Shown here: one piece after another, positions 30,531 to 60,350 of the stretch
Numbering within the stretch: the stretch's first letter is position 1
Layout of the letters: each line of letters starts with the position of its first letter
NCBI GenBank assembly: GCA_963693285.1
Contig: OY848925.1
Location: 4,256,932 to 4,320,931, forward strand
Direction: 5' to 3'
DNA from: Xestospongia muta
Taxonomy: Eukaryota; Porifera; Demospongiae; Haplosclerida; Petrosiidae
DNA length: 64,000 bases
Made by a program: the position numbers and the translations under genes
The notes under the pieces: model-generated
Told to the model about the DNA's origin: nothing
Database searches by the model: none
Seen by the model: only the letters and a program-made list of their open reading frames with translations

Positions 30531-30599
30531 GAGTAAGACAAAGCAATCCAGTTCAAGGGTATTTAGGAATATATAAAACCAAAACAAAATATAGAATAA

Positions 30600-36381: not shown

Positions 36382-36413
36382 CACGTGGAAGATAGAAACT
36401 CATCCAATTTAAG

Positions 36414-36454
36414 GTAGCCTATAGCCTGGTTGACTGGTTTTTCTTTATTTACAG
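36414..36454 (+). other. possible 41-nt 5'UTR intron
   Basis: The donor 'ttaag|gtagcc' and the acceptor 'ttctttatttacag|atctag' lie just before the transposase ATG at 36461. The pyrimidine-rich acceptor is good and the size matches the tiny introns elsewhere in the element. Not proven. Confidence 0.45.
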
Positions 36455-36460
36455 ATCTAG

Positions 36461-38227
36461 ATGCATTCTCACCCACCCCTTTTAACAAGAGTCGTAAAAG
36501 CTGCGCATAGATCTACTTCGAGTAAGGAAACCTCAGCCTGCTCTTTGCCACGGCGTGGTACTACATACAGGAGATGGAACAGCGAGAGTATGGAAAAAGC
36601 AGTTAAGGAAGTCGAGTTGGGAATGCCAATCAGACAAGCTTGTGAAATCTTCTCAGTCCCAAGATCTTCACTCCATGATAGAGTGAGTGGCAAAGTTGAT
36701 TGTAAGGCAAGATCAGGTCCAACCCCTTATTTAAGTTTTGAAGAAGAAGAAGAATTAGTGAGTTTTTTAATCCAAACTGCTAAGATTGGGTACCCACATA
36801 CCAAGAAACAAGTACTGGCTTTAGTTCAAAGAATTGTTGAGGGAAAGGGAATTGAAACAACACTATCAAATGGATGGTGGGAAAGATTTCTGCGAAGGCA
36901 TCCCAAATTAACTCTGAAGATGGCTGTACCGTTATCTTATGGAAGGGCAATTGCAACCAATCCAGATGTACTCAATCGTTACTTTGATATGCTTGAAGAA
37001 ACTCTAGAAACCAACGGCATACTTGATGATCCTTCTCGCATTTTCAACTGCGACGAAACTGGGCTTCCACTTAGCCCAAAATGTTTGAAGATAGTGGACA
37101 AGATTGGTTCTAGAAATCCTAGCCACATAACTGGAAATACTAAAGCACAAATAACTGTTTTGGCTTGCTCGTGTGCAGCTGGCTACGTTATACCTCCCTT
37201 TATCATTTTTAACAGAAAATCTTTAAGTCAGGAGTTAACTAGAGGAGAAATCCCTGGGACACTCTACGGCCTGTCTGACAGTGGATGGATGTCAAGGGAT
37301 CTCTTTTTCCATTGGTTCACAAAGCATTTTCTACTATATGCCCCACAAGTTCGCCCACTGCTTCTACTACTGGATGGGCACTCTACTCATTATTGTCCTG
37401 ATACTATCAACATGGCTGCTCAAAATCAAGTTATCATTTTCACCCTCCCACCTCATACAACACATGTGATGCAGCCACTGGACAGAGGATGCTTTGCACC
37501 ATTAAAAGTATCATGGAGACAGATTTGTCACCAATTCATTGCTAAAAACCCTGGGAAGACAGTATCTCAGTACGACTTTTGTCGACTTTTCTCTCAGGCT
37601 TGGTCGAAAGCTTTTTCAATAGAAAACATCGTATCAAGTTTTAGAGTCACTGGAGTGTACCCACTTGATCGGTCAGTTACTAAAGCACATGTGTTGGAGC
37701 CAAATGATAATGAAGATTTTGCTCTATTCAAACCCGAAGCTCTTGCTCGAAAAACAGGCCTAGCTTACATTCCATTATATAGCCCTGCTCTTGGACGTTC
37801 AAAGTCCCATTGTCAAGCTGTTACTAGTACTCCACGTCGGTCAATGGATGATCATGAGCTCCTCAGCAATGGAACGTTTCTTAGTTCAGATAGATCTATG
37901 GTCTTGGAAAGGTCGTTGTCTGATCCAGACTTGCACGAGAGATCTTTTCGAGAAGGTTCATTACCAACTCAATCTGCATCAACTGTCGGCAATTTTTTAG
38001 TTCCTGCATTTTTACCGCCAAGTAAATCCACTACAAAATCTGCAGAAAAAGTTCTTACCAGCCGTCATCATCTCCAATTTCTGTGGGAACGACAGAGACA
38101 GAAAGAAATGGAAGCTCTACAAAAGGATGAGCGGAAAAGAGTTAGAGAAGATAAGGCAAAAGCCAAAAGAGAACAGTCCCAAACAAAGAGAAGTGGAAGG
38201 AATAAGAAGAAAGGTGTGTCAAATTAA
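36461..38227 (+). CDS. pogo/Tigger-type DDE transposase (unspliced form, 588 aa)
   Basis: Intact 588-residue ORF. Residues ~34-78 form a psq-type helix-turn-helix (TYRRWNSESMEKAVKEVELG, then RQACEIFSVPRSSLHDRVSG). Residues ~95-155 form a CENP-B/Tc5-like second DNA-binding unit (GWWERFLRRHPKL). The DDE_1 core follows, with catalytic Asp at 198 (FNCDETGL), 305 (LLLDGHSTH) and 341 (QPLDRGCFAPLK), the last two 35 residues apart. It should bind the TIRs and cut and join element ends at TA. The C-terminal tail from ~530 is strongly basic and coiled-coil-like (ERQRQKEMEALQKDERKR). The stop is reached only if the first intron (38214-38251) is retained, adding GVSN. Splicing removes that stop and continues into the array. 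All catalytic residues are present. Confidence 0.92.
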   Translation: MHSHPPLLTRVVKAAHRSTSSKETSACSLPRRGTTYRRWNSESMEKAVKEVELGMPIRQACEIFSVPRSSLHDRVSGKVDCKARSGPTPYLSFEEEEELVSFLIQTAKIGYPHTKKQVLALVQRIVEGKGIETTLSNGWWERFLRRHPKLTLKMAVPLSYGRAIATNPDVLNRYFDMLEETLETNGILDDPSRIFNCDETGLPLSPKCLKIVDKIGSRNPSHITGNTKAQITVLACSCAAGYVIPPFIIFNRKSLSQELTRGEIPGTLYGLSDSGWMSRDLFFHWFTKHFLLYAPQVRPLLLLLDGHSTHYCPDTINMAAQNQVIIFTLPPHTTHVMQPLDRGCFAPLKVSWRQICHQFIAKNPGKTVSQYDFCRLFSQAWSKAFSIENIVSSFRVTGVYPLDRSVTKAHVLEPNDNEDFALFKPEALARKTGLAYIPLYSPALGRSKSHCQAVTSTPRRSMDDHELLSNGTFLSSDRSMVLERSLSDPDLHERSFREGSLPTQSASTVGNFLVPAFLPPSKSTTKSAEKVLTSRHHLQFLWERQRQKEMEALQKDERKRVREDKAKAKREQSQTKRSGRNKKKGVSN

Positions 38228-41200
38228 AATTACTGTACCTTTATTGTTTAGTTGTAGTAGGGGTCTCCGAGTCTGAGGCTGATGATTTAGAAATGGCGCT
38301 TCCAAGACAAACCAGGAATAAGAAGAAAGGTGTGTCAAATTAAAATTACTGTATCTTTATTGTTTAGTTGTAGTAGGGGTCTCCGAGTCTGAGGCTGATG
38401 ATTTAGAAATGGTACTTCCAAGACAAACCAGAAATAAGAAGAAAAGTGTGTCAAATTAAAATTACTGTACGTTTATTGTTTAGTTGTAGTAGGGGTCTCC
38501 GAGTCTGAGGCTGATGATTTAGAAATGGCGCTTCCAAGACAAACCAGGAATAAGAAGAAAGGTGTGTCAAATTAAAATTACTGTATCTTTATTGTTTAGT
38601 TGTAGTAGGGGTCTCCGAGTCTGAGGCTGATGATTTAGAAATGGTACTTCCAAGACAAACTAGAAATAAGAAGAAAAGTGTGTCAAATTAAAATTACTGT
38701 ACCTTTATTGTTTAGTTGTAGTAGGGGTCTCCGAGTCTGAGGCTGATGATTTAGAAATGGCGCTTCCAAGACAAACCAGGAATAAGAAGAAAGGTGTGTC
38801 AAATTAAAATTACTGTATCTTTATTGTTTAGTTGTAGTAGGGGTCTCCGAGTCTGAGGCTGATGATTTAGAAATGGTACTTCCAAGACAAACTAGAAATA
38901 AGAAGAAAAGTGTGTCAAATTAAAATTACTGTACGTTTATTGTTTAGTTGTAGTAGGGGTCTCCGAGTCTGAGGCTGATGATTTAGAAATGGTACTTCCA
39001 AGACAAACCAGGAATAAGAAGAAAGGTGTATCAAATTAAAATTACTGTATCTTTATTGTTTAGTTGTAGTAGAGTTCTCTGAGTCTGAGGCTGATGATTT
39101 AGAAATGGCGCTTCCAAGACAAACCAGGAATAAAAAAAGGTGTGTCAATTTAAAATTACTGTATCTTTATTGTTTAGTTGTAGTAGGGGTCTCCGAGTCT
39201 GAGGCTGATGATTTAGAAATGGCACTTCCAAGACAAACCAGGAATAAGAAGAAAGGTGTGTCAAATTAAAATGGCTGTAGCTTTATTGTTTAGTTGTAGT
39301 AGGGGTCTCCGAGTCTGAGGCTGATGATTTAGAAATGGCACTTCCAAGACAAATCAGGAATAAGAAGAAAGGTGTGTCAAATTAAAATTACTGTACCTTT
39401 ATTGTTTAGTTGTAGTAGGGGTCTCCGAGTCTGAGGCTGATGATTTAGAAATGGCACTTCCAAGACAAACCAGGAATAAGAAGAAAGGTGTGTCAAATTA
39501 AAATGGCTGTAGCTTTATTGTTTAGTTGTAGTAGGGGTCTCCGAGTCTGAGGCTGATGATTTAGAAATGGTACTTCCAAGACAAACTAGGAATAAGAAGA
39601 AAGGTGTGTCAAATTAAAATTACTGTATCTTTATTGTTTAGTTGTAGTAGGGGTCTCCGAGTCTGAGGCTGATGATTTAGAAATGGTACTTCCAAGACAA
39701 ACTAGAAATAAGAAGAAAAGTGTGTCAAATTAAAATTACTGTACGTTTATTGTTTAGTTGTAGTAGGGGTCTCCGAGTCTGAGGCTGATGATTTAGAAAT
39801 GGTACTTCCAAGACAAACCAGAAATAAGAAGAAAAGTGTGTCAAATTAAAATTACTGTATCTTTATTGTTTAGTTGTAGTAGGGGTCTCCGAGTCTGAGG
39901 CTGATGATTTAGAAATGGTACTTCCAAGACAAACTAGAAATAAGAAGAAAAGTGTGTCAAATTAAAATTACTGTACGTTTATTGTTTAGTTGTAGTAGGG
40001 GTCTCCGAGTCTGAGGCTGATGATTTAGAAATGGTACTTCCAAGACAAACCAGGAATAAGAAGAAAGGTGTATCAAATTAAAATTACTGTATCTTTATTG
40101 TTTAGTTGTAGTAGGGGTCTCCGAGTCTGAGGCTGATGATTTAGAAATGGCACTTCCAAGACAAACCAGGAATAAGAAGAAAGGTGTGTCAAATTAAAAT
40201 GGCTGTAGCTTTATTGTTTAGTTGTAGTAGGGGTCTCCGAGTCTGAGGCTGATGATTTAGAAATGGTACTTCCAAGACAAACTAGGAATAAGAAGAAAAG
40301 TGTGTCAAATTAAAATTACTGTACGTTTATTGTTTAGTTGTAGTAGGGGTCTCCGAGTCTGAGGCTGATGATTTAGAAATGGCGCTTCCAAGACAAACCA
40401 GGAATAAGAAGAAAGGTGTGTCAAATTAAAATTACTGTATCTTTATTGTTTAGTTGTAGTAGGGGTCTCCGAGTCTGAGGCTGATGATTTAGAAATGGCC
40501 CTTCCAAGACAAACCAGGAATAAAAAGAAAGGTGTGTCAAATTAAAATGGCTGTAGCTTTATTGTTTAGTTGTAGTAGGGGTCTCCGAGTCTGAGGCTGA
40601 TGATTTAGAAATGGTACTTCCAAGACAAACCAGGAATAAGAAGAAAGGTGTATCAAATTAAAAATAACTGTATCTTTATTGTTTAGTTGTAATAGAGTTC
40701 TCTGAGTCTGAGGCTGATGATTTAGAAATGGCACTTCCAAGACAAACCAGAAATAAGAAGAAAGGTGTATCAAATTAAAATTACTGTACGTTTATTGTTT
40801 AGTTGTAGTAGGGGTCTCCGAGTCTGAGGCTGATGATTTAGAAATGGCGCTTCCAAGACAAACCAGGAATAAAAAGAAAGGTGTGTCAAATTAAAATGGC
40901 TGTAGCTTTATTGTTTAGTTGTAGTAGGGGTCTCCGAGTCTGAGGCTGATGATTTAGAAATGGCACTTCCAAGACAAACCAGGAATAAGAAGAAAGGTGT
41001 GTCAAATTAAAATGGCTGTACCTTTATCGTTTAGTTGTAGTAGGGGTCTCCGAGTCTGAGGCTGATGATTTAGAAATGGCGCTTCCAAGACAAACCAGGA
41101 ATAAGAAGAAAGGTGTGTCAAATTAAAATTACTGTATCTTTATTGTTTAGTTGTAGTAGGGGTCTCCGAGTCTGAGGCTGATGATTTAGAAATGGTACTT

Positions 41201-44200
41201 CCAAGACAAACCAGAAATAAGAAGAAAAGTGTGTCAAATTAAAATTACTGTACGTTTATTGTTTAGTTGTAGTAGGGGTCTCCGAGTCTGAGGCTGATGA
41301 TTTAGAAATGGCGCTTCCAAGACAAACCAGGAATAAGAAGAAAGGTGTGTCAAATTAAAATTACTGTATCTTTATTGTTTAGTTGTAGTAGGGGTCTCCG
41401 AGTCTGAGGCTGATGATTTAGAAATGGTACTTCCAAGACAAACTAGAAATAAGAAGAAAAGTGTGTCAAATTAAAATTACTGTACCTTTATTGTTTAGTT
41501 GTAGTAGGGGTCTCCGAGTCTGAGGCTGATGATTTAGAAATGGCGCTTCCAAGACAAACCAGGAATAAGAAGAAAGGTGTGTCAAATTAAAATTACTGTA
41601 TCTTTATTGTTTAGTTGTAGTAGGGGTCTCCGAGTCTGAGGCTGATGATTTAGAAATGGTACTTCCAAGACAAACTAGAAATAAGAAGAAAAGTGTGTCA
41701 AATTAAAATTACTGTACGTTTATTGTTTAGTTGTAGTAGGGGTCTCCGAGTCTGAGGCTGATGATTTAGAAATGGTACTTCCAAGACAAACCAGGAATAA
41801 GAAGAAAGGTGTATCAAATTAAAATTACTGTATCTTTATTGTTTAGTTGTAGTAGAGTTCTCTGAGTCTGAGGCTGATGATTTAGAAATGGCGCTTCCAA
41901 GACAAACCAGGAATAAAAAAAGGTGTGTCAATTTAAAATTACTGTATCTTTATTGTTTAGTTGTAGTAGGGGTCTCCGAGTCTGAGGCTGATGATTTAGA
42001 AATGGCACTTCCAAGACAAACCAGGAATAAGAAGAAAGGTGTGTCAAATTAAAATGGCTGTAGCTTTATTGTTTAGTTGTAGTAGGGGTCTCCGAGTCTG
42101 AGGCTGATGATTTAGAAATGGCACTTCCAAGACAAATCAGGAATAAGAAGAAAGGTGTGTCAAATTAAAATTACTGTACCTTTATTGTTTAGTTGTAGTA
42201 GGGGTCTCCGAGTCTGAGGCTGATGATTTAGAAATGGCACTTCCAAGACAAACCAGGAATAAGAAGAAAGGTGTGTCAAATTAAAATGGCTGTAGCTTTA
42301 TTGTTTAGTTGTAGTAGGGGTCTCCGAGTCTGAGGCTGATGATTTAGAAATGGTACTTCCAAGACAAACTAGGAATAAGAAGAAAGGTGTGTCAAATTAA
42401 AATTACTGTATCTTTATTGTTTAGTTGTAGTAGGGGTCTCCGAGTCTGAGGCTGATGATTTAGAAATGGTACTTCCAAGACAAACTAGAAATAAGAAGAA
42501 AAGTGTGTCAAATTAAAATTACTGTACGTTTATTGTTTAGTTGTAGTAGGGGTCTCCGAGTCTGAGGCTGATGATTTAGAAATGGTACTTCCAAGACAAA
42601 CCAGAAATAAGAAGAAAAGTGTGTCAAATTAAAATTACTGTATCTTTATTGTTTAGTTGTAGTAGGGGTCTCCGAGTCTGAGGCTGATGATTTAGAAATG
42701 GTACTTCCAAGACAAACTAGAAATAAGAAGAAAAGTGTGTCAAATTAAAATTACTGTACGTTTATTGTTTAGTTGTAGTAGGGGTCTCCGAGTCTGAGGC
42801 TGATGATTTAGAAATGGTACTTCCAAGACAAACCAGGAATAAGAAGAAAGGTGTATCAAATTAAAATTACTGTATCTTTATTGTTTAGTTGTAGTAGGGG
42901 TCTCCGAGTCTGAGGCTGATGATTTAGAAATGGCACTTCCAAGACAAACCAGGAATAAGAAGAAAGGTGTGTCAAATTAAAATGGCTGTAGCTTTATTGT
43001 TTAGTTGTAGTAGGGGTCTCCGAGTCTGAGGCTGATGATTTAGAAATGGTACTTCCAAGACAAACTAGGAATAAGAAGAAAAGTGTGTCAAATTAAAATT
43101 ACTGTACGTTTATTGTTTAGTTGTAGTAGGGGTCTCCGAGTCTGAGGCTGATGATTTAGAAATGGCGCTTCCAAGACAAACCAGGAATAAGAAGAAAGGT
43201 GTGTCAAATTAAAATTACTGTATCTTTATTGTTTAGTTGTAGTAGGGGTCTCCGAGTCTGAGGCTGATGATTTAGAAATGGCCCTTCCAAGACAAACCAG
43301 GAATAAAAAGAAAGGTGTGTCAAATTAAAATGGCTGTAGCTTTATTGTTTAGTTGTAGTAGGGGTCTCCGAGTCTGAGGCTGATGATTTAGAAATGGTAC
43401 TTCCAAGACAAACCAGGAATAAGAAGAAAGGTGTATCAAATTAAAAATAACTGTATCTTTATTGTTTAGTTGTAATAGAGTTCTCTGAGTCTGAGGCTGA
43501 TGATTTAGAAATGGCACTTCCAAGACAAACCAGAAATAAGAAGAAAGGTGTATCAAATTAAAATTACTGTACGTTTATTGTTTAGTTGTAGTAGGGGTCT
43601 CCGAGTCTGAGGCTGATGATTTAGAAATGGCGCTTCCAAGACAAACCAGGAATAAAAAGAAAGGTGTGTCAAATTAAAATGGCTGTAGCTTTATTGTTTA
43701 GTTGTAGTAGGGGTCTCCGAGTCTGAGGCTGATGATTTAGAAATGGCACTTCCAAGACAAACCAGGAATAAGAAGAAAGGTGTGTCAAATTAAAATGGCT
43801 GTACCTTTATCGTTTAGTTGTAGTAGGGGTCTCCGAGTCTGAGGCTGATGATTTAGAAATGGCGCTTCCAAGACAAACCAGGAATAAGAAGAAAGGTGTG
43901 TCAAATTAAAATTACTGTATCTTTATTGTTTAGTTGTAGTAGGGGTCTCCGAGTCTGAGGCTGATGATTTAGAAATGGTACTTCCAAGACAAACCAGAAA
44001 TAAGAAGAAAAGTGTGTCAAATTAAAATTACTGTACGTTTATTGTTTAGTTGTAGTAGGGGTCTCCGAGTCTGAGGCTGATGATTTAGAAATGGCGCTTC
44101 CAAGACAAACCAGGAATAAAAAGAAAGGTGTGTCAAATTAAAATGGCTGTAGCTTTATTGTTTAGTTGTAGTAGGGGTCTCCGAGTCTGAGGCTGATGAT

Positions 44201-47200
44201 TTAGAAATGGCACTTCCAAGACAAACCAGGAATAAGAAGAAAGGTGTGTCAAATTAAAATGGCTGTACCTTTATCGTTTAGTTGTAGTAGGGGTCTCCGA
44301 GTCTGAGGCTGATGATTTAGAAATGGCGCTTCCAAGACAAATCAGGAATAAGAAGAAAGGTGTGTCAAATTAAAATTACTGTATCTTTATTGTTTAGTTG
44401 TAGTAGGGGTCTCCGAGTCTGAGGCTGATGATTTAGAAATGGTACTTCCAAGACAAACCAGAAATAAGAAGAAAAGTGTGTCAAATTAAAATTACTGTAC
44501 GTTTATTGTTTAGTTGTAGTAGGGGTCTCCGAGTCTGAGGCTGATGATTTAGAAATGGTACTTCCAAGACAAACCAGGAATAAGAAGAAAGGTGTATCAA
44601 ATTAAAATTACTGTATCTTTATTGTTTAGTTGTAGTAGGGGTCTCCGAGTCTGAGGCTGATGATTTAGAAATGGCGCTTCCAAGACAAACCAGGAATAAG
44701 AAGAAAAGTGTGTCAAATTAAAATTACTGTACGTTTATTGTTTAGTTGTAGTAGGGGTCTCCGAGTCTGAGGCTGATGATTTAGAAATGGCACTTCCAAG
44801 ACAAACCAGGAATAAGAAGAAAGGTGTATCAAATTAAAATTACTGTACGTTTATTGTTTAGTTGTAGTAGGGGTCTCCGAGTCTGAGGCTGATGATTTAG
44901 AAATGGCGCTTCCAAGACAAACCAGGAATAAAAAGAAAGGTGTGTCAAATTAAAATGGCTGTAGCTTTATTGTTTAGTTGTAGTAGGGGTCTCCGAGTCT
45001 GAGGCTGATGATTTAGAAATGGCACTTCCAAGACAAACCAGGAATAAGAAGAAAGGTGTGTCAAATTAAAATGGCTGTACCTTTATCGTTTAGTTGTAGT
45101 AGGGGTCTCCGAGTCTGAGGCTGATGATTTAGAAATGGCGCTTCCAAGACAAACCAGGAATAAGAAGAAAGGTGTGTCAAATTAAAATTACTGTATCTTT
45201 ATTGTTTAGTTGTAGTAGGGGTCTCCGAGTCTGAGGCTGATGATTTAGAAATGGTACTTCCAAGACAAACCAGAAATAAGAAGAAAAGTGTGTCAAATTA
45301 AAATTACTGTACGTTTATTGTTTAGTTGTAGTAGGGGTCTCCGAGTCTGAGGCTGATGATTTAGAAATGGTACTTCCAAGACAAACCAGGAATAAGAAGA
45401 AAGGTGTATCAAATTAAAATTACTGTATCTTTATTGTTTAGTTGTAGTAGGGGTCTCCGAGTCTGAGGCTGATGATTTAGAAATGGCGCTTCCAAGACAA
45501 ACCAGGAATAAGAAGAAAGGTGTGTCAAATTAAAATTACTGTATCTTTATTGTTTAGTTGTAGTAGGGGTCTCCGAGTCTGAGGCTGATGATTTAGAAAT
45601 GGCACTTCCAAGACAAACCAGGAATAAGAAGAAAGGTGTGTCAAATTAAAATGGCTGTAGCTTTATTGTTTAGTTGTAGTAGGGGTCTCCGAGTCTGAGG
45701 CTGATGATTTAGAAATGGCACTTCCAAGACAAATCAGGAATAAGAAGAAAGGTGTGTCAAATTAAAATTACTGTACCTTTATTGTTTAGTTGTAGTAGGG
45801 GTCTCCGAGTCTGAGGCTGATGATTTAGAAATGGCACTTCCAAGACAAACCAGGAATAAGAAGAAAGGTGTGTCAAATTAAAATGGCTGTAGCTTTATTG
45901 TTTAGTTGTAGTAGGGGTCTCCGAGTCTGAGGCTGATGATTTAGAAATGGTACTTCCAAGACAAACTAGGAATAAGAAGAAAGGTGTGTCAAATTAAAAT
46001 TACTGTATCTTTATTGTTTAGTTGTAGTAGGGGTCTCCGAGTCTGAGGCTGATGATTTAGAAATGGTACTTCCAAGACAAACTAGAAATAAGAAGAAAAG
46101 TGTGTCAAATTAAAATTACTGTACGTTTATTGTTTAGTTGTAGTAGGGGTCTCCGAGTCTGAGGCTGATGATTTAGAAATGGTACTTCCAAGACAAACTA
46201 GAAATAAGAAGAAAAGTGTGTCAAATTAAAATTACTGTACGTTTATTGTTTAGTTGTAGTAGGGGTCTCCGAGTCTGAGGCTGATGATTTAGAAATGGTA
46301 CTTCCAAGACAAACCAGGAATAAGAAGAAAAGTGTGTCAAATTAAAATTACTGTATCTTTATTGTTTAGTTGTAGTAGGAGTCTCCGAGTCTGAGGCTGA
46401 TGATTTAGAAATGGTACTTCCAAGACAAACTAGAAATAAGAAGAAAAGTGTGTCAAATTAAAATTACTGTACGTTTATTGTTTAGTTGTAGTAGGGGTCT
46501 CCGAGTCTGAGGCTGATGATTTAGAAATGGTACTTCCAAGACAAACCAGGAATAAGAAGAAAGGTGTATCAAATTAAAATTACTGTATCTTTATTGTTTA
46601 GTTGTAGTAGGGGTCTCCGAGTCTGAGGCTGATGATTTAGAAATGGCACTTCCAAGACAAACCAGGAATAAGAAGAAAGGTGTGTCAAATTAAAATGGCT
46701 GTAGCTTTATTGTTTAGTTGTAGTAGGGGTCTCCGAGTCTGAGGCTGATGATTTAGAAATGGTACTTCCAAGACAAACTAGGAATAAGAAGAAAAGTGTG
46801 TCAAATTAAAATTACTGTATCTTTATTGTTTAGTTGTAGTAGGGGTCTCCGAGTCTGAGGCTGATGATTTAGAAATGGCGCTTCCAAGACAAACCAGGAA
46901 TAAAAAGAAAGGTGTGTCAAATTAAAATGGCTGTAGCTTTATTGTTTAGTTGTAGTAGGGGTCTCCGAGTCTGAGGCTGATGATTTAGAAATGGTACTTC
47001 CAAGACAAACCAGGAATAAGAAGAAAGGTGTATCAAATTAAAAATAACTGTATCTTTATTGTTTAGTTGTAATAGAGTTCTCTGAGTCTGAGGCTGATGA
47101 TTTAGAAATGGCACTTCCAAGACAAACCAGAAATAAGAAGAAAGGTGTATCAAATTAAAATTACTGTACGTTTATTGTTTAGTTGTAGTAGGGGTCTCCG

Positions 47201-50200
47201 AGTCTGAGGCTGATGATTTAGAAATGGCGCTTCCAAGACAAACCAGGAATAAAAAGAAAGGTGTGTCAAATTAAAATGGCTGTAGCTTTATTGTTTAGTT
47301 GTAGTAGGGGTCTCCGAGTCTGAGGCTGATGATTTAGAAATGGCACTTCCAAGACAAACCAGGAATAAGAAGAAAGGTGTGTCAAATTAAAATGGCTGTA
47401 CCTTTATCGTTTAGTTGTAGTAGGGGTCTCCGAGTCTGAGGCTGATGATTTAGAAATGGCGCTTCCAAGACAAACCAGGAATAAGAAGAAAGGTGTGTCA
47501 AATTAAAATTACTGTATCTTTATTGTTTAGTTGTAGTAGGGGTCTCCGAGTCTGAGGCTGATGATTTAGAAATGGTACTTCCAAGACAAACCAGAAATAA
47601 GAAGAAAAGTGTGTCAAATTAAAATTACTGTACGTTTATTGTTTAGTTGTAGTAGGGGTCTCCGAGTCTGAGGCTGATGATTTAGAAATGGCGCTTCCAA
47701 GACAAACCAGGAATAAAAAGAAAGGTGTGTCAAATTAAAATGGCTGTAGCTTTATTGTTTAGTTGTAGTAGGGGTCTCCGAGTCTGAGGCTGATGATTTA
47801 GAAATGGCACTTCCAAGACAAACCAGGAATAAGAAGAAAGGTGTGTCAAATTAAAATGGCTGTACCTTTATCGTTTAGTTGTAGTAGGGGTCTCCGAGTC
47901 TGAGGCTGATGATTTAGAAATGGCGCTTCCAAGACAAATCAGGAATAAGAAGAAAGGTGTGTCAAATTAAAATTACTGTATCTTTATTGTTTAGTTGTAG
48001 TAGGGGTCTCCGAGTCTGAGGCTGATGATTTAGAAATGGTACTTCCAAGACAAACCAGAAATAAGAAGAAAAGTGTGTCAAATTAAAATTACTGTACGTT
48101 TATTGTTTAGTTGTAGTAGGGGTCTCCGAGTCTGAGGCTGATGATTTAGAAATGGTACTTCCAAGACAAACCAGGAATAAGAAGAAAGGTGTATCAAATT
48201 AAAATTACTGTATCTTTATTGTTTAGTTGTAGTAGGGGTCTCCGAGTCTGAGGCTGATGATTTAGAAATGGCGCTTCCAAGACAAACCAGGAATAAGAAG
48301 AAAAGTGTGTCAAATTAAAATTACTGTACGTTTATTGTTTAGTTGTAGTAGGGGTCTCCGAGTCTGAGGCTGATGATTTAGAAATGGCACTTCCAAGACA
48401 AACCAGAAATAAGAAGAAAGGTGTATCAAATTAAAATTACTGTACGTTTATTGTTTAGTTGTAGTAGGGGTCTCCGAGTCTGAGGCTGATGATTTAGAAA
48501 TGGTACTTCCAAGACAAACCAGGAATAAAAAGAAAGGTGTGTCAAATTAAAATGGCTGTAGCTTTATTGTTTAGTTGTAGTAGGGGTCTCCGAGTCTGAG
48601 GCTGATGATTTAGAAATGGCACTTCCAAGACAAACCAGGAATAAGAAGAAAGGTGTGTCAAATTAAAATGGCTGTACCTTTATCGTTTAGTTGTAGTAGG
48701 GGTCTCCGAGTCTGAGGCTGATGATTTAGAAATGGCGCTTCCAAGACAAACCAGGAATAAGAAGAAAGGTGTGTCAAATTAAAATTACTGTATCTTTATT
48801 GTTTAGTTGTAGTAGGGGTCTCCGAGTCTGAGGCTGATGATTTAGAAATGGTACTTCCAAGACAAACCAGAAATAAGAAGAAAAGTGTGTCAAATTAAAA
48901 TTACTGTACGTTTATTGTTTAGTTGTAGTAGGGGTCTCCGAGTCTGAGGCTGATGATTTAGAAATGGTACTTCCAAGACAAACCAGGAATAAGAAGAAAG
49001 GTGTATCAAATTAAAATTACTGTATCTTTATTGTTTAGTTGTAGTAGGGGTCTCCGAGTCTGAGGCTGATGATTTAGAAATGGCGCTTCCAAGACAAACC
49101 AGGAATAAGAAGAAAGGTGTGTCAAATTAAAATTACTGTATCTTTATTGTTTAGTTGTAGTAGGGGTCTCCGAGTCTGAGGCTGATGATTTAGAAATGGC
49201 ACTTCCAAGACAAACCAGGAATAAGAAGAAAGGTGTGTCAAATTAAAATGGCTGTAGCTTTATTGTTTAGTTGTAGTAGGGGTCTCCGAGTCTGAGGCTG
49301 ATGATTTAGAAATGGCACTTCCAAGACAAATCAGGAATAAGAAGAAAGGTGTGTCAAATTAAAATTACTGTACCTTATTGTTTAGTTGTAGTAGGGGTCT
49401 CCAAGTCTGAGGCTGATGATTTAGAAATGGCACTTCCAAGACAAACCAGGAATAAGAAGAAAGGTGTGTCAAATTAAAATGGCTGTAGCTTTATTGTTTA
49501 GTTGTAGTAGGGGTCTCCGAGTCTGAGGCTGATGATTTAGAAATGGCACTTCCAAGACAAACTAGGAATAAGAAGAAAGGTGTGTCAATTTAAAATTACT
49601 GTACCTTTATTGTTTAGTTGTAGTAGGGGTCTCCGAGTCTGAGGCTGATGATTTAGAAATGGCACTTCCAAGACAAACCAGGAATAAGAAGAAAGGTGTG
49701 TCAAATTAAAATGGCTGTAGCTTTATTGTTTAGTTGTAGTAGGGGTCTCCGAGTCTGAGGCTGATGATTTAGAAATGGTACTTCCAAGACAAATCAGGAA
49801 TAAGAAGAAAGGTGTGTCAAATTAAAATTACTGTACGTTTATTGTTTAGTTGTAGTAGGGGTCTCCGAGTCTGAGGCTGATGATTTAGAAATGGCACTTC
49901 CAAGACAAACCAGGAATAAGAAGAAAGGTGTGTCAAATTAAAATGGCTGTAGCTTTATTGTTTAGTTGTAGTAGGGGTCTCCGAGTCTGAGGCTGATGAT
50001 TTAGAAATGGTACTTCCAAGACAAACCAGAAATAAGAAGAAAAGTGTGTCAAATTAAAATTACTGTATCTTTATTGTTTAGTTGTAGTAGGGGTCTCCGA
50101 GTCTGAGGCTGATGATTTAGAAATGGTACTTCCAAGACAAACTAGAAATAAGAAGAAAAGTGTGTCAAATTAAAATTACTGTACGTTTATTGTTTAGTTG

Positions 50201-53200
50201 TAGTAGGGGTCTCCGAGTCTGAGGCTGATGATTTAGAAATGGTACTTCCAAGACAAACCAGGAATAAGAAGAAAGGTGTATCAAATTAAAATTACTGTAT
50301 CTTTATTGTTTAGTTGTAGTAGGGGTCTCCGAGTCTGAGGCTGATGATTTAGAAATGGCACTTCCAAGACAAACCAGGAATAAGAAGAAAGGTGTGTCAA
50401 ATTAAAATGGCTGTAGCTTTATTGTTTAGTTGTAGTAGGGGTCTCCGAGTCTGAGGCTGATGATTTAGAAATGGTACTTCCAAGACAAACTAGGAATAAG
50501 AAGAAAAGTGTGTCAAATTAAAATTACTGTACGTTTATTGTTTAGTTGTAGTAGGGGTCTCCGAGTCTGAGGCTGATGATTTAGAAATGGCGCTTCCAAG
50601 ACAAACCAGGAATAAGAAGAAAGGTGTGTCAAATTAAAATTACTGTATCTTTATTGTTTAGTTGTAGTAGGGGTCTCCGAGTCTGAGGCTGATGATTTAG
50701 AAATGGTACTTCCAAGACAAACTAGAAATAAGAAGAAAAGTGTGTCAAATTAAAATTACTGTACCTTTATTGTTTAGTTGTAGTAGGGGTCTCCGAGTCT
50801 GAGGCTGATGATTTAGAAATGGTACTTCCAAGACAAACCAGGAATAAGAAGAAAGGTGTATCAAATTAAAAATAACTGTATCTTTATTGTTTAGTTGTAA
50901 TAGAGTTCTCTGAGTCTGAGGCTGATGATTTAGAAATGGCACTTCCAAGACAAACCAGAAATAAGAAGAAAGGTGTATCAAATTAAAATTACTGTACGTT
51001 TATTGTTTAGTTGTAGTAGGGGTCTCCGAGTCTGAGGCTGATGATTTAGAAATGGCGCTTCCAAGACAAACCAGGAATAAAAAGAAAGGTGTGTCAAATT
51101 AAAATGGCTGTAGCTTTATTGTTTAGTTGTAGTAGGGGTCTCCGAGTCTGAGGCTGATGATTTAGAAATGGCACTTCCAAGACAAACCAGGAATAAGAAG
51201 AAAGGTGTGTCAAATTAAAATGGCTGTACCTTTATCGTTTAGTTGTAGTAGGGGTCTCCGAGTCTGAGGCTGATGATTTAGAAATGGCGCTTCCAAGACA
51301 AACCAGGAATAAGAAGAAAGGTGTGTCAAATTAAAATTACTGTATCTTTATTGTTTAGTTGTAGTAGGAGTCTCCGAGTCTGAGGCTGATGATTTAGAAA
51401 TGGTACTTCCAAGACAAACCAGAAATAAGAAGAAAAGTGTGTCAAATTAAAATTACTGTACGTTTATTGTTTAGTTGTAGTAGGGGTCTCCGAGTCTGAG
51501 GCTGATGATTTAGAAATGGTACTTCCAAGACAAACCAGGAATAAGAAGAAAGGTGTATCAAATTAAAATTACTGTATCTTTATTGTTTAGTTGTAGTAGG
51601 GGTCTCCGAGTCTGAGGCTGATGATTTAGAAATGGCGCTTCCAAGACAAACCAGGAATAAGAAGAAAGGTGTATCAAATTAAAATTACTGTATCTTTATT
51701 GTTTAGTTGTAGTAGGGGTCTCCGAGTCTGAGGCTGATGATTTAGAAATGGCACTTCCAAGACAAACCAGGAATAAGAAGAAAGGTGTGTCAAATTAAAA
51801 TGGCTGTAGCTTTATTGTTTAGTTGTAGTAGGGGTCTCCGAGTCTGAGGCTGATGATTTAGAAATGGCACTTCCAAGACAAATCAGGAATAAGAAGAAAG
51901 GTGTGTCAAATTAAAATTACTGTACCTTATTGTTTAGTTGTAGTAGGGGTCTCCAAGTCTGAGGCTGATGATTTAGAAATGGCACTTCCAAGACAAACCA
52001 GGAATAAGAAGAAAGGTGTGTCAAATTAAAATGGCTGTAGCTTTATTGTTTAGTTGTAGTAGGGGTCTCCGAGTCTGAGGCTGATGATTTAGAAATGGTA
52101 CTTCCAAGACAAACCAGAAATAAGAAGAAAAGTGTGTCAAATTAAAATTACTGTACGTTTATTGTTTAGTTGTAGTAGGGGTCTCCGAGTCTGAGGCTGA
52201 TGATTTAGAAATGGTACTTCCAAGACAAACCAGGAATAAGAAGAAAGGTGTATCAAATTAAAATTACTGTATCTTTATTGTTTAGTTGTAGTAGGGGTCT
52301 CCGAGTCTGAGGCTGATGATTTAGAAATGGCGCTTCCAAGACAAACCAGGAATAAGAAGAAAGGTGTGTCAAATTAAAATTACTGTATCTTTATTGTTTA
52401 GTTGTAGTAGGGGTCTCCGAGTCTGAGGCTGATGATTTAGAAATGGCACTTCCAAGACAAACCAGGAATAAGAAGAAAGGTGTGTCAAATTAAAATGGCT
52501 GTAGCTTTATTGTTTAGTTGTAGTAGGGGTCTCCGAGTCTGAGGCTGATGATTTAGAAATGGCACTTCCAAGACAAATCAGGAATAAGAAGAAAGGTGTG
52601 TCAAATTAAAATTACTGTACCTTATTGTTTAGTTGTAGTAGGGGTCTCCAAGTCTGAGGCTGATGATTTAGAAATGGCACTTCCAAGACAAACCAGGAAT
52701 AAGAAGAAAGGTGTGTCAAATTAAAATGGCTGTAGCTTTATTGTTTAGTTGTAGTAGGGGTCTCCGAGTCTGAGGCTGATGATTTAGAAATGGTACTTCC
52801 AAGACAAACCAGAAATAAGAAGAAAAGTGTGTCAAATTAAAATTACTGTACGTTTATTGTTTAGTTGTAGTAGGGGTCTCCGAGTCTGAGGCTGATGATT
52901 TAGAAATGGTACTTCCAAGACAAACCAGGAATAAGAAGAAAGGTGTGTCAAATTAAAATTACTGTATCTTTATTGTTTAGTTGTAGTAGGGGTCTCCGAG
53001 TCTGAGGCTGATGATTTAGAAATGGCACTTCCAAGACAAACCAGGAATAAGAAGAAAAGTGTGTCAAATTAAAATGGCTGTACCTTTATTGTTTAGTTGT
53101 AGTAGGGGTCTCCGAGTCTGAGGCTGATGATTTAGAAATGGTACTTCCAAGACAAACTAGGAATAAGAAGAAAGGTGTGTCAAATTAAAATTACTGTATC

Positions 53201-56200
53201 TTTATTGTTTAGTTGTAGTAGAGTTCTCTGAGTCTGAGGCTGATGATTTAGAAATGGCACTTCCAAGACAAACCAGAAATAAGAAGAAAGGTGTGTCAAA
53301 TTAAAATTACTGTACGTTTATTGTTTAGTTGTAGTAGGGGTCTCCGAGTCTGAGGCTGATGATTTAGAAATGGCACTTCCAAGACAAACCAGGAATAAAA
53401 AGAAAGGTGTGTCAATTTAAAATTACTGTACCTTTATTGTTTAGTTGTAGTAGGGGTCTCCGAGTCTGAGGCTGATGACTTAGAAATGACACTTCCAAGA
53501 CAAACCAGGAATAAGAAGAAAGGTGTGTCAAATTAAAATTACTGTATCTTTATTGTTTAGTTGTAGTAGGGGTCTCCGAGTCTGAGGCTGATGATTTAGA
53601 AATGGTACTTCCAAGACAAACTAGAAATAAGAAGAAAAGTGTGTCAAATTAAAATTACTGTACCTTTATTGTTTAGTTGTAGTAGGGGTCTCCGAGTCTG
53701 AGGCTGATGATTTAGAAATGGTACTTCCAAGACAAACCAGGAATAAGAAGAAAGGTGTATCAAATTAAAAATAACTGTATCTTTATTGTTTAGTTGTAAT
53801 AGAGTTCTCTGAGTCTGAGGCTGATGATTTAGAAATGGCACTTCCAAGACAAACCAGAAATAAGAAGAAAGGTGTATCAAATTAAAATTACTGTACGTTT
53901 ATTGTTTAGTTGTAGTAGGGGTCTCCGAGTCTGAGGCTGATGATTTAGAAATGGTACTTCCAAGACAAACCAGGAATAAAAAGAAAGGTGTGTCAAATTA
54001 AAATGGCTGTAGCTTTATTGTTTAGTTGTAGTAGGGGTCTCCGAGTCTGAGGCTGATGATTTAGAAATGGCACTTCCAAGACAAACCAGGAATAAGAAGA
54101 AAGGTGTGTCAAATTAAAATGGCTGTACCTTTATCGTTTAGTTGTAGTAGGGGTCTCCGAGTCTGAGGCTGATGATTTAGAAATGGCGCTTCCAAGACAA
54201 ACCAGGAATAAGAAGAAAGGTGTGTCAAATTAAAATTACTGTATCTTTATTGTTTAGTTGTAGTAGGGGTCTCCAAGTCTGAGGCTGATGATTTAGAAAT
54301 GGTACTTCCAAGACAAACCAGAAATAAGAAGAAAAGTGTGTCAAATTAAAATTACTGTACGTTTATTGTTTAGTTGTAGTAGGGGTCTCCGAGTCTGAGG
54401 CTGATGATTTAGAAATGGTACTTCCAAGACAAACCAGGAATAAGAAGAAAGGTGTATCAAATTAAAATTACTGTATCTTTATTGTTTAGTTGTAGTAGGG
54501 GTCTCCGAGTCTGAGGCTGATGATTTAGAAATGGCGCTTCCAAGACAAACCAGGAATAAGAAGAAAGGTGTATCAAATTAAAATTACTGTATCTTTATTG
54601 TTTAGTTGTAGTAGGGGTCTCCGAGTCTGAGGCTGATGATTTAGAAATGGCACTTCCAAGACAAACCAGGAATAAGAAGAAAGGTGTGTCAAATTAAAAT
54701 GGCTGTAGCTTTATTGTTTAGTTGTAGTAGGGGTCTCCGAGTCTGAGGCTGATGATTTAGAAATGGCACTTCCAAGACAAATCAGGAATAAGAAGAAAGG
54801 TGTGTCAAATTAAAATTACTGTACCTTATTGTTTAGTTGTAGTAGGGGTCTCCAAGTCTGAGGCTGATGATTTAGAAATGGCACTTCCAAGACAAACCAG
54901 GAATAAGAAGAAAGGTGTGTCAAATTAAAATGGCTGTAGCTTTATTGTTTAGTTGTAGTAGGGGTCTCCAAGTCTGAGGCTGATGATTTAGAAATGGCAC
55001 TTCCAAGACAAACCAGGAATAAGAAGAAAGGTGTGTCAAATTAAAATGGCTGTAGCTTTATTGTTTAGTTGTAGTAGGGGTCTCCGAGTCTGAGGCTGAT
55101 GATTTAGAAATGGCACTTCCAAGACAAACTAGGAATAAGAAGAAAGGTGTGTCAAATTAAAATTACTGTATCTTTATTGTTTAGTTGTAGTAGGGGTCTC
55201 CGAGTCTGAGGCTGATGATTTAGAAATGGTACTTCCAAGACAAACCAGAAATAAGAAGAAAAGTGTGTCAAATTAAAATTACTGTACGTTTATTGTTTAG
55301 TTGTAGTAGGGGTCTCCGAGTCTGAGGCTGATGATTTAGAAATGGTACTTCCAAGACAAACCAGGAATAAGAAGAAAGGTGTGTCAAATTAAAATTACTG
55401 TATCTTTATTGTTTAGTTGTAGTAGGGGTCTCCGAGTCTGAGGCTGATGATTTAGAAATGGCACTTCCAAGACAAACCAGGAATAAGAAGAAAGGTGTGT
55501 CAAATTAAAATGGCTGTACCTTTATTGTTTAGTTGTAGTAGGGGTCTCCGAGTCTGAGGCTGATGATTTAGAAATGGTACTTCCAAGACAAACTAGGAAT
55601 AAGAAGAAAGGTGTGTCAAATTAAAATTACTGTATCTTTATTGTTTAGTTGTAGTAGAGTTCTCTGAGTCTGAGGCTGATGATTTAGAAATGGCACTTCC
55701 AAGACAAACCAGAAATAAGAAGAAAGGTGTGTCAAATTAAAATTACTGTACGTTTATTGTTTAGTTGTAGTAGGGGTCTCCGAGTCTGAGGCTGATGATT
55801 TAGAAATGGCACTTCCAAGACAAACCAGGAATAAAAAGAAAGGTGTGTCAATTTAAAATTACTGTACCTTTATTGTTTAGTTGTAGTAGGGGTCTCCGAG
55901 TCTGAGGCTGATGATTTAGAAATGGCACTTCCAAGACAAACCAGGAATAAGAAGAAAGGTGTGTCAAATTAAAATTACTGTATCTTTATTGTTTAGTTGT
56001 AGTAGGGGTCTCCGAGTCTGAGGCTGATGATTTAGAAATGGTACTTCCAAGACAAACTAGAAATAAGAAGAAAAGTGTGTCAAATTAAAATTACTGTACC
56101 TTTATTGTTTAGTTGTAGTAGGGGTCTCCGAGTCTGAGGCTGATGATTTAGAAATGGTACTTCCAAGACAAACCAGGAATAAGAAGAAAGGTGTATCAAA

Positions 56201-59200
56201 TTAAAAATAACTGTATCTTTATTGTTTAGTTGTAATAGAGTTCTCTGAGTCTGAGGCTGATGATTTAGAAATGGCACTTCCAAGACAAACCAGAAATAAG
56301 AAGAAAGGTGTATCAAATTAAAATTACTGTACCTTTATTGTTTAGTTGTAGTAGGGGTCTCCGAGTCTGAGGCTGATGATTTAGAAATGGCACTTCCAAG
56401 ACAAACCAGGAATAAAAAGAAAGGTGTGTCAAATTAAAATTACTGTACCTTTATTGTTTAGTTGTAGTAGGGGTCTCCGAGTCTGAGGCTGATGATTTAG
56501 AAATGGCACTTCCAAGTTCCAAGACAAACCAGGAATAAAAAGAAAGGTGTGTCAATTTAAAATTACTGTACCTTTATTGTTTAGTTGTAGTAGGGGTCTC
56601 CGAGTCTGAGGCTGATGATTTAGAAATGGCACTTCCAAGACAAACCAGGAATAAAAAGAAAGGTGTGTCAATTTAAAATTACTGTACCTTTATTGTTTAG
56701 TTGTAGTAGGGGTCTCCGAGTCTGAGGCTGATGATTTAGAAATGGCACTTCCAAGACAAACCAGGAATAAGAAGAAAGGTGTGTCAAATTAAAATTACTG
56801 TACCTTTATTGTTTAGTTGTAGTAGGGGTCTCCGAGTCTGAGGCTGATGATTTAGAAATGGCACTTCCAAGACAAACCAGGAATAAGAAGAAAGGTGTGT
56901 CAAATTAAAATGGCTGTAGCTTTATTGTTTAGTTGTAGTAGGGGTCTCCGAGTCTGAGGCTGATGATTTAGAAATGGCACTTCCAAGACAAACCAGGAAT
57001 AAGAAGAAAGGTGTGTCAAATTAAAATGGCTGTAGCTTTATTGTTTAGTTGTAGTAGGGGTCTCCGAGTCTGAGGCTGATGATTTAGAAATGGCACTTCC
57101 AAGACAAACTAGGAATAAGAAGAAAGGTGTGTCAAATTAAAATTACTGTATCTTTATTGTTTAGTTGTAGTAGGGGTCTCCGAGTCTGAGGCTGATAATT
57201 TAGAAATGGTACTTCCAAGACAAACCAGAAATAAGAAGAAAGGTGTGTCAAATTAAAATTACTGTACGTTTATTGTTTAGTTGTAGTAGGGGTCTCCGAG
57301 TCTGAGGCTGATGATTTAGAAATGGCACTTCCAAGACAAACCAGGAATAAAAAGAAAGGTGTGTCAATTTAAAATTACTGTACCTTTATTGTTTAGTTGT
57401 AGTAGGGGTCTCCGAGTCTGAGGCTGATGATTTAGAAATGGTACTTCCAAGACAAACCAGAAATAAGAAGAAAAGTGTGTCAAATTAAAATTACTGTACG
57501 TTTATTGTTTAGTTGTAGTAGGGGTCTCCGAGTCTGAGGCTGATGATTTAGAAATGGCACTTCCAAGACAAACCAGGAATAAGAAGAAAGGTGTATCAAA
57601 TTAAAATTACTGTATCTTTATTGTTTAGTTGTAGTAGAGTTCTCTGAGTCTGAGGCTGATGATTTAGAAATGGCACTTCCAAGACAAACCAGAAATAAGA
57701 AGAAAGGTGTGTCAAATTAAAATTACTGTACGTTTATTGTTTAGTTGTAGTAGGGGTCTCCGAGTCTGAGGCTGATGATTTAGAAATGGCACTTCCAAGA
57801 CAAACCAGGAATAAAAAGAAAGGTGTGTCAATTTTAAATTACTGTACCTTTATTGTTTAGTTGTAGTAGGGGTCTCCGAGTCTGAGGCTGATAATTTAGA
57901 AATGGTACTTCCAAGACAAACCAGAAATAAGAAGAAAGGTGTGTCAAATTAAAATTACTGTACGTTTATTGTTTAGTTGTAGTAGGGGTCTCCGAGTCTG
58001 AGGCTGATGATTTAGAAATGGCACTTCCAAGACAAACCAGGAATAAAAAGAAAGGTGTGTCAATTTAAAATTACTGTACCTTTATTGTTTAGTTGTAGTA
58101 GGGGTCTCCGAGTCTGAGGCTGATGATTTAGAAATGGTACTTCCAAGACAAACCAGGAATAAGAAGAAAGGTGTGTCAAATTAAAATTACTGTATCTTTA
58201 TTGTTTAGTTGTAGTAGGGGTCTCCGAGTCTGAGGCTGATGATTTAGAAATGGCACTTCCAAGACAAACCAGGAATAAGAAGAAAGGTGTATCAAATTAA
58301 AATTACTGTATCTTTATTGTTTAGTTGTAGTAGAGTTCTCTGAGTCTGAGGCTGATGATTTAGAAATGGCACTTCCAAGACAAACCAGAAATAAGAAGAA
58401 AGGTGTGTCAAATTAAAATTACTGTACGTTTATTGTTTAGTTGTAGTAGGGGTCTCCGAGTCTGAGGCTGATGATTTAGAAATGGCACTTCCAAGACAAA
58501 CCAGGAATAAAAAGAAAGGTGTGTCAATTTTAAATTACTGTACCTTTATTGTTTAGTTGTAGTAGGGGTCTCCGAGTCTGAGGCTGATGATTTAGAAATG
58601 GCACTTCCAAGACAAACCAGGAATAAGAAGAAAGGTGTGTCAAATTAAAATTACTGTACCTTTATTGTTTAGTTGTAGTAGGGGTCTCCGAGTCTGAGGC
58701 TGACGATTTAGAAATGGCGCTTCCAAGACAAACCAGGAATAAGAAGAAAGGTTTGTCAAATTAAAATTACTGTATCTTTATTGTTTAGTTGTAGTAGAGT
58801 TGTTTGAGTCTGAGGCTGATGATTTAGAAATGGCACTTCCAAAACAGGCAAAGAAAGGTGTGTCAAATTGAGATTACTTTACCTTTATTACCATACATGT
58901 AATTGTAGGGTTTATCGACCCTGAGCCTGTTGATGTTGAAGTTTTAGAGACTTGCCAAACTGGAAAAAATATGAAAGGTGTGTCAAACTCAGACATGGGG
59001 CAAGCATTTTTAAGCTCTTAAAGCACAATTTCGAGCACTTGTAAAAGGGCTTAAGCACAAGCACATGTATTTGAACATTTATGAAATGTATTATAACTAA
59101 CCTGGCACCTTTGGGCCTAAACACTTACTAAAACGCTCTGTACATGCACTTGTTTAAAGTGCTTTCAAGCACTCAAGTGCTTGCCCCATGTCTGCTACAT

Positions 59201-60350
59201 GTACATGTGTATTATGTTATTTTTGTCACAGGTAAAACAGATTCCTGGTAGATAAAAGATCTGAATCTTTATATAGCAGACAAGAATCATCTTGAAAGTG
59301 GTTCTGAAGTTTCCAACAATGTGATCAATGCTGCCCACACTCTTCTAAGTCAACAATTTCCACACATACATGGTTTTCAGAATACATTATTGGGTTATCG
59401 TCTCAAGTTTAAAGTTGTTCCTAGGATACCCTCTGTTCAGATACTTCACACAGGTACAGTGATGTGTATTAATAAGTTAAGCAGCAAGGTTAATAATACC
59501 TAATAAGAACAAAAAAGTATTTAGAAATTTCCACAGCAAAAAATTATGTCTGGTAATAATCCTTATTGGTTGTAGTAATACAAAGAGACTGCTATTAATT
59601 CACCTTGTCAAGTTGTTACATACTTACTGTAAGGGTAGAAATTTTTGAGGGGTTTTAAATTTCGTTGTTTTCGTGGGTGATTTATAATCCATGAAAATAT
59701 TGACCCAGCATTTGTGCATGCGCCTACATGTAGGTGCAATGAAAATTAAATACCCTGATATTTAATGAATAAAGGGTTATTCTTTATATAAACTCTTTAT
59801 TGTAGGATCTAATCACTGGATCTGTACATGTTCCCAAAAACCTGGAGTTGTCCAGATTATGGACAGTTTGGCATTATTCTATACACTTAACAAGCCCACT
59901 CTTCTTCAAGTTTCACAAATATACTCCTATTCCTCAAAATCTTCTCTGAAAATACAGACGATGTCTGTACAACAGCAGGAAGGGAGCCGGGACTGTGGCC
60001 TCTTTTCTATTGCTATGGCAATGGAAATGTGTTGTGGAAACAATCCTGAATGTGCTAGTTTTCATCAAGAAGTAATGTGTGATCATCTAATTGATTGTTT
60101 TGAAAGAGGAAAGTTGTCTCTGTTCCCAAAGAAATTGTACAACCAGCCGGAATGTATACCTCGACCTTCGAGACATCATCACATCATTGACCTATATTGT
60201 TACTGTAAAATGCCTGAAGACTACGACGAGATGATGATCTCTTGTGATGTGTGTGGGCAATGGTTTCACTGTTCCTGTGTTCATGTTACTCCAGGTAACA
60301 TTCCTGATGTTTGGGAGTGTAAATCATGTTTCAAGAACACCAAGAAATAG
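36461..60350 (+). CDS. giant fused gene: DDE transposase + 178 x 26-aa repeats + Ulp1 protease + PHD
   Basis: Proposed gene model. Exon 1 is 36461-38213. It is followed by 178 repeat exons in 38252-58857 (78 nt each, with four exceptions), exon 58909-58977, exon 59232-59453 (or from 59259) and exon 59806-60350. All junctions are phase 1, and exon 1 ends in GRNKKK just as each repeat ends in TRNKKK, so the frame runs from transposase into the array and on to the protease. Full splicing would give roughly 5,400-5,500 residues. Each repeat has a SIM-like VVVGVSESEADD and a basic end. Weak points are two 76-nt units, one 85-nt unit and a TAG at 59249-59251 if the first acceptor is used. Alternatives are that the array is mostly non-coding satellite with separate transposase and protease genes at each end, or that only a subset of exons is spliced. 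The continuous phase strongly favours one gene. Confidence 0.65.
38252..38329 (+). other. first repeat exon (type unit)
   Basis: It starts after the acceptor 'attgtttag' and ends at the donor 'aagaaag|gtgtgt'. The 78 nt encode, with the G carried over from exon 1, V-V-V-G-V followed by SESEADDLE, MALPRQ and TRNKKK. The donor MAG|GTGTGT and the acceptor with a preceding T-rich run are acceptable metazoan sites for an ultra-short intron. Confidence 0.75.
39064..39139 (+). other. frame-breaking repeat exon (76 nt)
   Basis: The A-rich end is 2 nt short ('aataaaaaaag' instead of 'aataagaagaaag'). With the normal donor, inclusion would shift the frame into a stop in the next unit. Using the GT two bases downstream (39142-39143) would restore 78 nt. 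An identical exon is at 41847-41922, copied with the higher-order block. Confidence 0.7.
56462..56546 (+). other. frame-breaking repeat exon (85 nt)
   Basis: A 7-bp tandem duplication ('ttccaag') after CTTCCAAG makes this unit 85 nt, which shifts the frame if it is included. Skipping it keeps the frame, because flanking exons are all phase 1 at both ends. Confidence 0.7.
58909..58977 (+). CDS. diverged 69-nt exon linking array to protease
   Basis: After the last regular unit (58789-58857, 69 nt, ending LPKQAKK), a 51-nt intron leads to this exon: acceptor 'aattgtag|', donor 'atgaaag|gtgtgt'. It is 23 codons, phase 1 at both ends, and encodes GFIDPEPVDVEVLETCQTGK and NMK. It aligns with the repeat pattern (hydrophobic start, acidic middle, basic end) and keeps the same donor, so it looks like the ancestral or a long-separated exon from which the array expanded. 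It contains an acidic-hydrophobic DVEVLE stretch. Confidence 0.7.
58990..59194. repeat. 205-bp MITE inside an intron of the giant gene
   Basis: The ends 'cagacatggggcaagca' and 'tgcttgccccatgtctg' are inverted copies, and the interior has further 'aagcact' repeats in both orientations. It lies in the intron 58978-59231, between the diverged exon and the protease exon. Minus-strand open frame 58912-59124 is incidental. Confidence 0.85.
59232..59453 (+). CDS. Ulp1-type protease, N-terminal exon
   Basis: The frame set by the upstream donor gives GKTDSW, TAG (59249-59251), IKDLNLYIADKNHLESG, SEVSNNVINAAHTLLSQQFP and VPRIPSVQILHT, ending at donor 'cacacag|gtacag'. The pattern W-(L)-x-D-L-x-L followed by D-K then INAAHxLL is that of Ulp1-like proteases in invertebrate elements, so the TAG sits where Leu (TTG) is expected. 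A second acceptor AG at 59257-59258 keeps phase and skips the stop, starting at D-L-N-L. It is unclear which is used. The downstream splice (phase 1) joins to GSNHW in the last exon. Confidence 0.6.
59806..60350 (+). CDS. Ulp1-type (C48) protease core and PHD finger, last exon
   Basis: It opens after acceptor 'ttattgtag|' with GSNHWICTCSQKPGVVQIMD. The C48 catalytic set is complete: His (CAC 59814-59816, in NHW), Asp (GAC 59862-59864, in QIMDSL), oxyanion Gln and Cys (TGT 59994-59996) in QQQEGSRDCGLFS. These enzymes cleave SUMO or related ubiquitin-like proteins. After a linker, 60198-60330 encodes a C4HC3 PHD finger: CYC, then CDVC, WFHCSC and WECKSC, with aromatic residues around FH typical of histone-tail readers. 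The ORF ends TAG at 60348-60350. Both domains look intact. The exon has no good independent start: the ATG at 59859 would omit the catalytic His, which supports its being a 3' exon. Confidence 0.88.

Follow-up and report, generated by a model that had tools for sequence, protein, structure and literature searches.

The leucine-rich repeat (LRR) genes of Tetrahymena are built from tandem exons that are short, uniform and a multiple of three nucleotides (3n) long, with symmetric intron phase and variable copy number; in PMC6564038, the 90-bp exons are reported in 1–51 copies in T. thermophila, and unequal crossing over is proposed. They are the nearest known design to the locus described here, a satellite array of 178 units inside a DNA transposon of the sponge Xestospongia muta, which lies in a stretch of 64,000 nucleotides (nt) of contig OY848925.1 (assembly GCA_963693285.1, positions 4,256,932 to 4,320,931; G000:C9:4256932-4320931 in our numbering), hereafter the window. 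The genome searched comprised 158 Mb in 28 contigs. Whereas the Tetrahymena genes are ciliate host genes that encode LRR domains and have phase-2 introns, the array here occupies a transposase linker, is in phase 1 and reaches 178 units; its exons are 78 nt long and its unit differs between families, one of which (D) does have 90-nt exons, but in phase 1. The kringle IV type 2 (KIV-2) repeat of LPA is likewise a coding tandem repeat with exons, introns and variable copy number, but in the accessible text of PMC11201333 its unit is 5.6 kb long, holds two exons and large introns, encodes a folded domain and is confined to one host gene, with up to 40 repeats. Ginger1 transposases, as covered by the part of PMC2836005 available, likewise have a C-terminal Ulp1 domain, with Ulp1 plus PHD in one listed family, and 0–4 introns; their core, however, resembles Gypsy integrases and not pogo, and that part mentions no exon array.

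Judged by its sequence, the host element is a probable member of the pogo superfamily as delineated in the available text of PMC7386202, with predicted DDE_1 and HTH domains, a DDxD spacing within the surveyed range (DD29-56D), a TA target site and inverted repeats. The same text reports Tigger from Porifera and gives lengths of 1.2–5.2 kb and transposases of 300–977 amino acids (aa). At 24,820 bp the element departs from this usual size, which is descriptive and not defining, and its 384-bp inverted repeats come near type 4 (392–856 bp), known there from insects only. That text contains no match for 'intron' or for 'PHD', and in the text made available by related-term searches of open-licence PubMed Central papers, no transposon was found to carry an array of mini-exons. 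As a rule, satellites and coding sequence are treated as distinct; here one tract is probably both, inside a mobile element. We consider it very probable that the satellite consists of coding mini-exons, and the transposon is predicted to encode a transposase–linker–Ulp1-like–PHD protein into whose linker the 178 phase-1 exons would be spliced.

Unit structure of the array and its predicted protein

Tandem Repeats Finder (TRF) reported a single tandem array at 38198-58889, with a period of 116, 178.4 copies and 94% matches. An earlier note on this DNA, made from its letters, had divided the period into a GT...AG segment and an exon-like segment, and this is what was recovered when the array was cut at the proposed splice sites: GT...AG bounds 178 of 178 predicted introns, which measure 38 nt in 168 units, 39 nt in 6 and 37 nt in 4, while the exon parts measure 78 nt in 174 units, 76 nt in two, 85 nt in one and 69 nt in one. 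The 69-nt part belongs to the last unit (58789-58857), so that the 78-nt length given in the note does not hold throughout. Its further claim that the exon-like segment is open and in frame was borne out for 175/178 exon parts, which preserve the frame, and failed in three units considered below; a stop in the transposase frame (phase 1) is present in 1/178 exon parts, namely the 85-nt one, and the remaining two frames each contain a stop in 178/178. Among fully aligned units, GT and AG were intact in 177/177, and none of the 174 gapless units contained a stop. Partly aligning units were dropped before counting (55/615 in family A, to which the window copy belongs, and 1/72 in family B).

All proposed junctions are in phase 1, from exon 1 through the array and the terminal mini-exon to the Ulp1-like and the Ulp1-like plus PHD exons; with phase 1 at both ends of each unit, gaining, losing or skipping units preserves the frame. 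Together the predicted exons, 182 by manual count and separated by 181 introns, amount to 16,467 nt. In the window transposase, PF03184 (DDE_1) scored 82.6 bits against a cut-off of 22, and HTH_psq and HTH_Tnp_Tc5 in exon 1 both exceeded their Pfam cut-offs. Against a Pfam cut-off of 24 bits, the PHD finger scored 26.8 in the window, 26.1 in the A copy L011, 24.2 in B, 27.7 in D, 27.3 in E and 30.9 in G, with C (22.4) and F (17.2) below it, and the predicted finger matches PHD fingers of solved structures. Peptidase_C48 (cut-off 20.7) scored 21.4 bits in family B and 18.5 bits in L011; no solved Ulp1 structure was among the 60 structure matches listed. TA was present at 36 of 36 located ends (A loci plus window).

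Related families and other copies

The earlier note had seen part of the setting of the array, but missed the transposon ends, the downstream exons and the recurrence of the design in six other families. DDE identity to the window protein is 67% in B, 68% in B2 (part), 53% in C, 48% in D, 44% in E, 47% in G (part) and 34% in F. A tandem array separates the DDE part from the PHD exon in seven of the eight families (A and six relatives); none was found between DDE and PHD in F. The units (exon plus intron, in nt) are composed of 78+38 in A, 72+40 in B, 72+45 in B2, 63+47 in C, 90+158 in D, 60+42 in E and mostly 60 or 69 plus 49–52 in G. Exons are thus a multiple of three, and also phase 1, in the distant families too, despite unrelated unit sequence: the unit peptides of A, B and B2 are related (their scores are reached in 0 to 6 of 2000 shuffles), and those of C, D and E showed no relation to A/B/B2 or to each other (best comparison: 7% of shuffles), G standing outside the comparison. 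In family F, DDE and PHD share one 666-codon frame, matched via coordinates, with neither intron nor array, and RSGRNKKK at the end of exon 1 aligns with KKGRNKKQ in the F linker, which places the array in the DDE-PHD linker.

Indel phase provided support for in-frame mini-exons. The earlier note had reasoned that a non-coding array should carry stops and non-3n indels as often in the 78-nt part as in the 38-nt part. Non-3n indels affect 3/177 window units in the former and 10/177 in the latter, although each figure reflects 2 distinct events. In families B, B2, C, D and E (139 full units), distinct indels were 3n in 8 of 10 cases in exons and in 2 of 11 in introns (8:2 versus 2:9, Fisher p=0.009); counted as unit instances, the 3n:non-3n ratio was 17:2 in exons and 2:22 in introns. 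None of the 68 full units of B2, C, D and E had a frameshift or stop, and no GT or AG was substituted; family B had frameshifts in 2/71 and stops in 1/71 full units, and in G, 14/15 exons were 3n and 1/15 contained a stop. Two D copies with 7 and 8 array exons (L045 and L047), when joined in silico, show no stop between the first ATG and the stop codon that closes the PHD exon, giving predicted products of 845 and 875 aa; in E copies the array reads on into the PHD exon without a stop (the first exon was not properly joined). In the window array, variants comprised 10 of 52 possible synonymous versus 8 of 169 possible nonsynonymous changes (p=0.002).

Two other candidate lines of proof were rejected. 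The exon-versus-intron substitution rate was unhelpful, and the split of a single unit is easily obtained, since an open 3n GT..AG split can be placed in 36–79% of the sequences produced by dinucleotide shuffling of units from six families; under a strict splice context 1–3% of shuffles qualify, but the real E and G units fail as well (D was not included). As the single-unit split is weak, the evidential weight comes from the related families.

Within family A, 28 further loci with array units were fetched, representing 27 copies (L009 adjoins L010 and belongs to the same copy) with 1 to 70 full units each; L035, in which Ulp1-PHD is present and no unit core was found, was left out of the tiling. 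L011 has 29 full units (1 frameshifted, 2 with stops) and all its fixed exons are open, and the window copy, L009/10 and L012 have one fixed-exon lesion each. Ten loci on contigs C1 and C7 (L016, L017, L019-L024, L027, L036) resemble one dead insertion multiplied through duplication: both flanks are alike in the eight inspected, and L023 and L027 have a common right flank, their left end not being located. These ten hold 1 to 41 full units, which indicates that array length changes without transposition. A reversed piece of array unit (85–92% identity) is present inside the DDE exon, near residue 299, in L016, L017, L019-L024 and L027, and was absent from L036 and from 8 other copies tested; pieces of the array can therefore be copied elsewhere within the element. 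Stops were found in 4/280 full units of a young set (window, L009, L010, L011 and L012), 27/114 of the duplicated dead insertion, 14/48 of DDE-deleted copies and 5/66 of L028, and frameshifts in 5/280, 15/114, 1/48 and 10/66, respectively, of groups that differ in age too; of the 560 full units in A, the 52 that fall outside these groups are in L013, L014, L015, L018, L033, L034 and L037.

Alternative readings of the array

The coding reading would imply the following history. A pogo-type DDE-PHD linker, split in most families into short phase-1 exons, would have had one linker exon multiplied in tandem together with its intron; in the window copy, splicing would join 178 mini-exons, each with its own GT...AG intron of 37–39 nt, in frame, and their translation would form a linker able to expand; such a gene would, as the earlier note proposed, rank among the most intron-dense known. 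Unit number may change through unequal exchange between units, as the earlier note had suggested; arrays of 1 to 178 units fit this, but slippage or gene conversion may also account for them. Broken units might do little harm, because skipping them likewise preserves the frame.

Several observations weigh against this reading. Three of the 178 window units are frame-breaking, with exon parts of 76, 76 and 85 nt and the first of them starting at 39064, and an in-frame stop interrupts the Ulp1-like exon of the window copy, so that this copy with all exons included would not yield the full protein, and the idea of one intact 178-exon gene in the window is not supported. The nonsynonymous deficit was not seen in L009/10 (p=0.25), L011 (p=0.77) or family B (p=0.35) and reached p=0.07, a marginal value, when the young set was pooled (0.03 without single sightings). 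All A copies together vary equally at the three codon positions, exons vary more than introns in family B, and the frameshift share of L028 is 10/66 units. Units within one array share history, which makes unit counts non-independent. The introns of A and B are alike as well (0/1000 shuffles reach the score), and unit homology alone therefore cannot separate exon from intron. For the E array and for the C PHD exon, the acceptor was chosen from several neighbouring AGs so as to preserve frame, and a protein search with the spliced peptide found no relative at E<=1e-5 among the 7997 candidates scored.

Two alternatives carry substantial odds, as both are compatible with coding mini-exons. In the first, to which we assign about an even chance, translation of the exons does take place, yet the array is a tolerated selfish passenger in a permissive linker, its frame kept and the element deriving no benefit. 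The spread from 1 to 41 full units among the ten loci of the apparent single dead insertion shows that length can change without function, amino-acid constraint outside the window is weak, and family F lacks an array altogether; the presence of an array at this position in 7/8 families, the units of C, D and E being unrelated, suggests instead that either a benefit or a strong process has acted repeatedly. In the second, which seems to us the less likely course, the mini-exons are real but splicing passes over most of a long array, exon 1 being joined to a few units or to the terminal exon and the rest removed as one large intron. Any such skip would preserve the frame, as all units are symmetric phase 1, the window copy stays in frame only if its three broken units are omitted, and broken units occur even in young copies (of 280 units, stops are present in 4 and frameshifts in 5). 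Were most of the array untranslated, however, neither the absence of stops from the 174 gapless window units nor the nonsynonymous deficit would be expected, although homogenisation could mimic both.

A functional extension of the coding reading is speculative, and we think it rather doubtful: that one family after another in a clade of pogo elements seizes and multiplies a mini-exon in the linker between the catalytic and chromatin-reading parts, giving transposases with tens to more than a hundred repeats, the A repeat acting as a SUMO-interacting-like element beside a SUMO-protease-like domain, in a multivalent tether for which copy number would determine both the reach and the splice forms. 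We take the family A repeat to resemble a SUMO-interacting motif on account of its VVxV followed by acidic residues.

That the array is a non-coding satellite, with the transposase ending inside the first 'intron' (588 aa) and Ulp1-PHD forming a separate gene, is very improbable: the open reading frame (ORF) 36461-38227 does end at a stop 12 bases into that 'intron' and tandem repeats are common inside transposons, but indel phase is not the same in exon as in intron parts, 3n phase-1 exons are retained in distant families with unrelated sequence, DDE and PHD lie in a single frame in family F, and in the D copies the array is crossed without a stop before that of the PHD exon.

If the satellite is indeed coding, the seven arrays in this one genome, spanning 1 to 178 units, offer a natural series for studying how tandem-exon arrays originate, as well as a case for asking (i) how the spliceosome copes with well over a hundred near-identical 37–39-nt introns in succession and (ii) whether an element tunes its transposase through copy number. 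They also serve as a warning that a long stretch of coding sequence may be lost from view when repeats are masked.

Feature coordinates and neighbouring sequence

Table 1. Predicted features of the transposon and its mini-exon array, in window positions.
Feature	Position	Strand	Remarks
Whole DNA transposon, 24,820 bp	35996..60815	+	TA on either side; inverted ends GAGTAACAGACC...GGTCTGTTACTC
Left terminal inverted repeat, 384 bp	35996..36379	+	97% identical to reversed 60432-60815
Exon 1, HTH_psq + HTH_Tnp_Tc5 + DDE_1 transposase (DD35D)	36461..38213	+	Predicted donor GT at 38214, phase 1
Array of 178 intron+exon units	38214..58857	+	Mostly 38+78 nt; from TRF, splice-site tiling and unit alignment
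First predicted array intron	38214..38251	+	38 nt
First predicted array exon	38252..38329	+	78 nt, phase 1 at both ends
Last array exon	58789..58857	+	69 nt; 9 nt shorter, frame kept
Diverged terminal mini-exon, 69 nt, phase 1	58909..58977	+	
Ulp1-like exon, 222 nt	59232..59453	+	One in-frame stop in the window copy
Ulp1-like core + PHD finger exon, 545 nt	59806..60350	+	Stop codon at its end
Right terminal inverted repeat, 384 bp	60432..60815	-	Pairs with left repeat

The predicted intron that precedes the Ulp1-like exon is mostly covered by a sequence with a 20-nt inverted repeat (95%) at 58990-59194, which may be a small inserted element. Some 24–25 kb past the right end of the window, at G000:C9:4344910-4345911, lies a 5' piece of the same element, with 99% identity across the first 179 residues of the transposase. 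In family D, two copies with a broken first exon, L051 and L052, hold 1 and 6 units, and the truncated PHD exon of L051 is followed by a TTACTA-rich tandem array with a 75-bp period (L051 1771-3324, reverse complement).

Elsewhere in the window, genes or gene ends at 5580-6116, 17581-18117 and about 35000-35370 are presumably fibrinogen-related. The introns of the genes at 5580-6116 and 17581-18117, read from the sequence, appear to be 48–50 nt long, and very short introns thus look ordinary here. Near-identical ORF pieces accompanied by the same 27-nt repeat are found at 2313-3883 and 30407-31798, and look like two copies of one retroelement.

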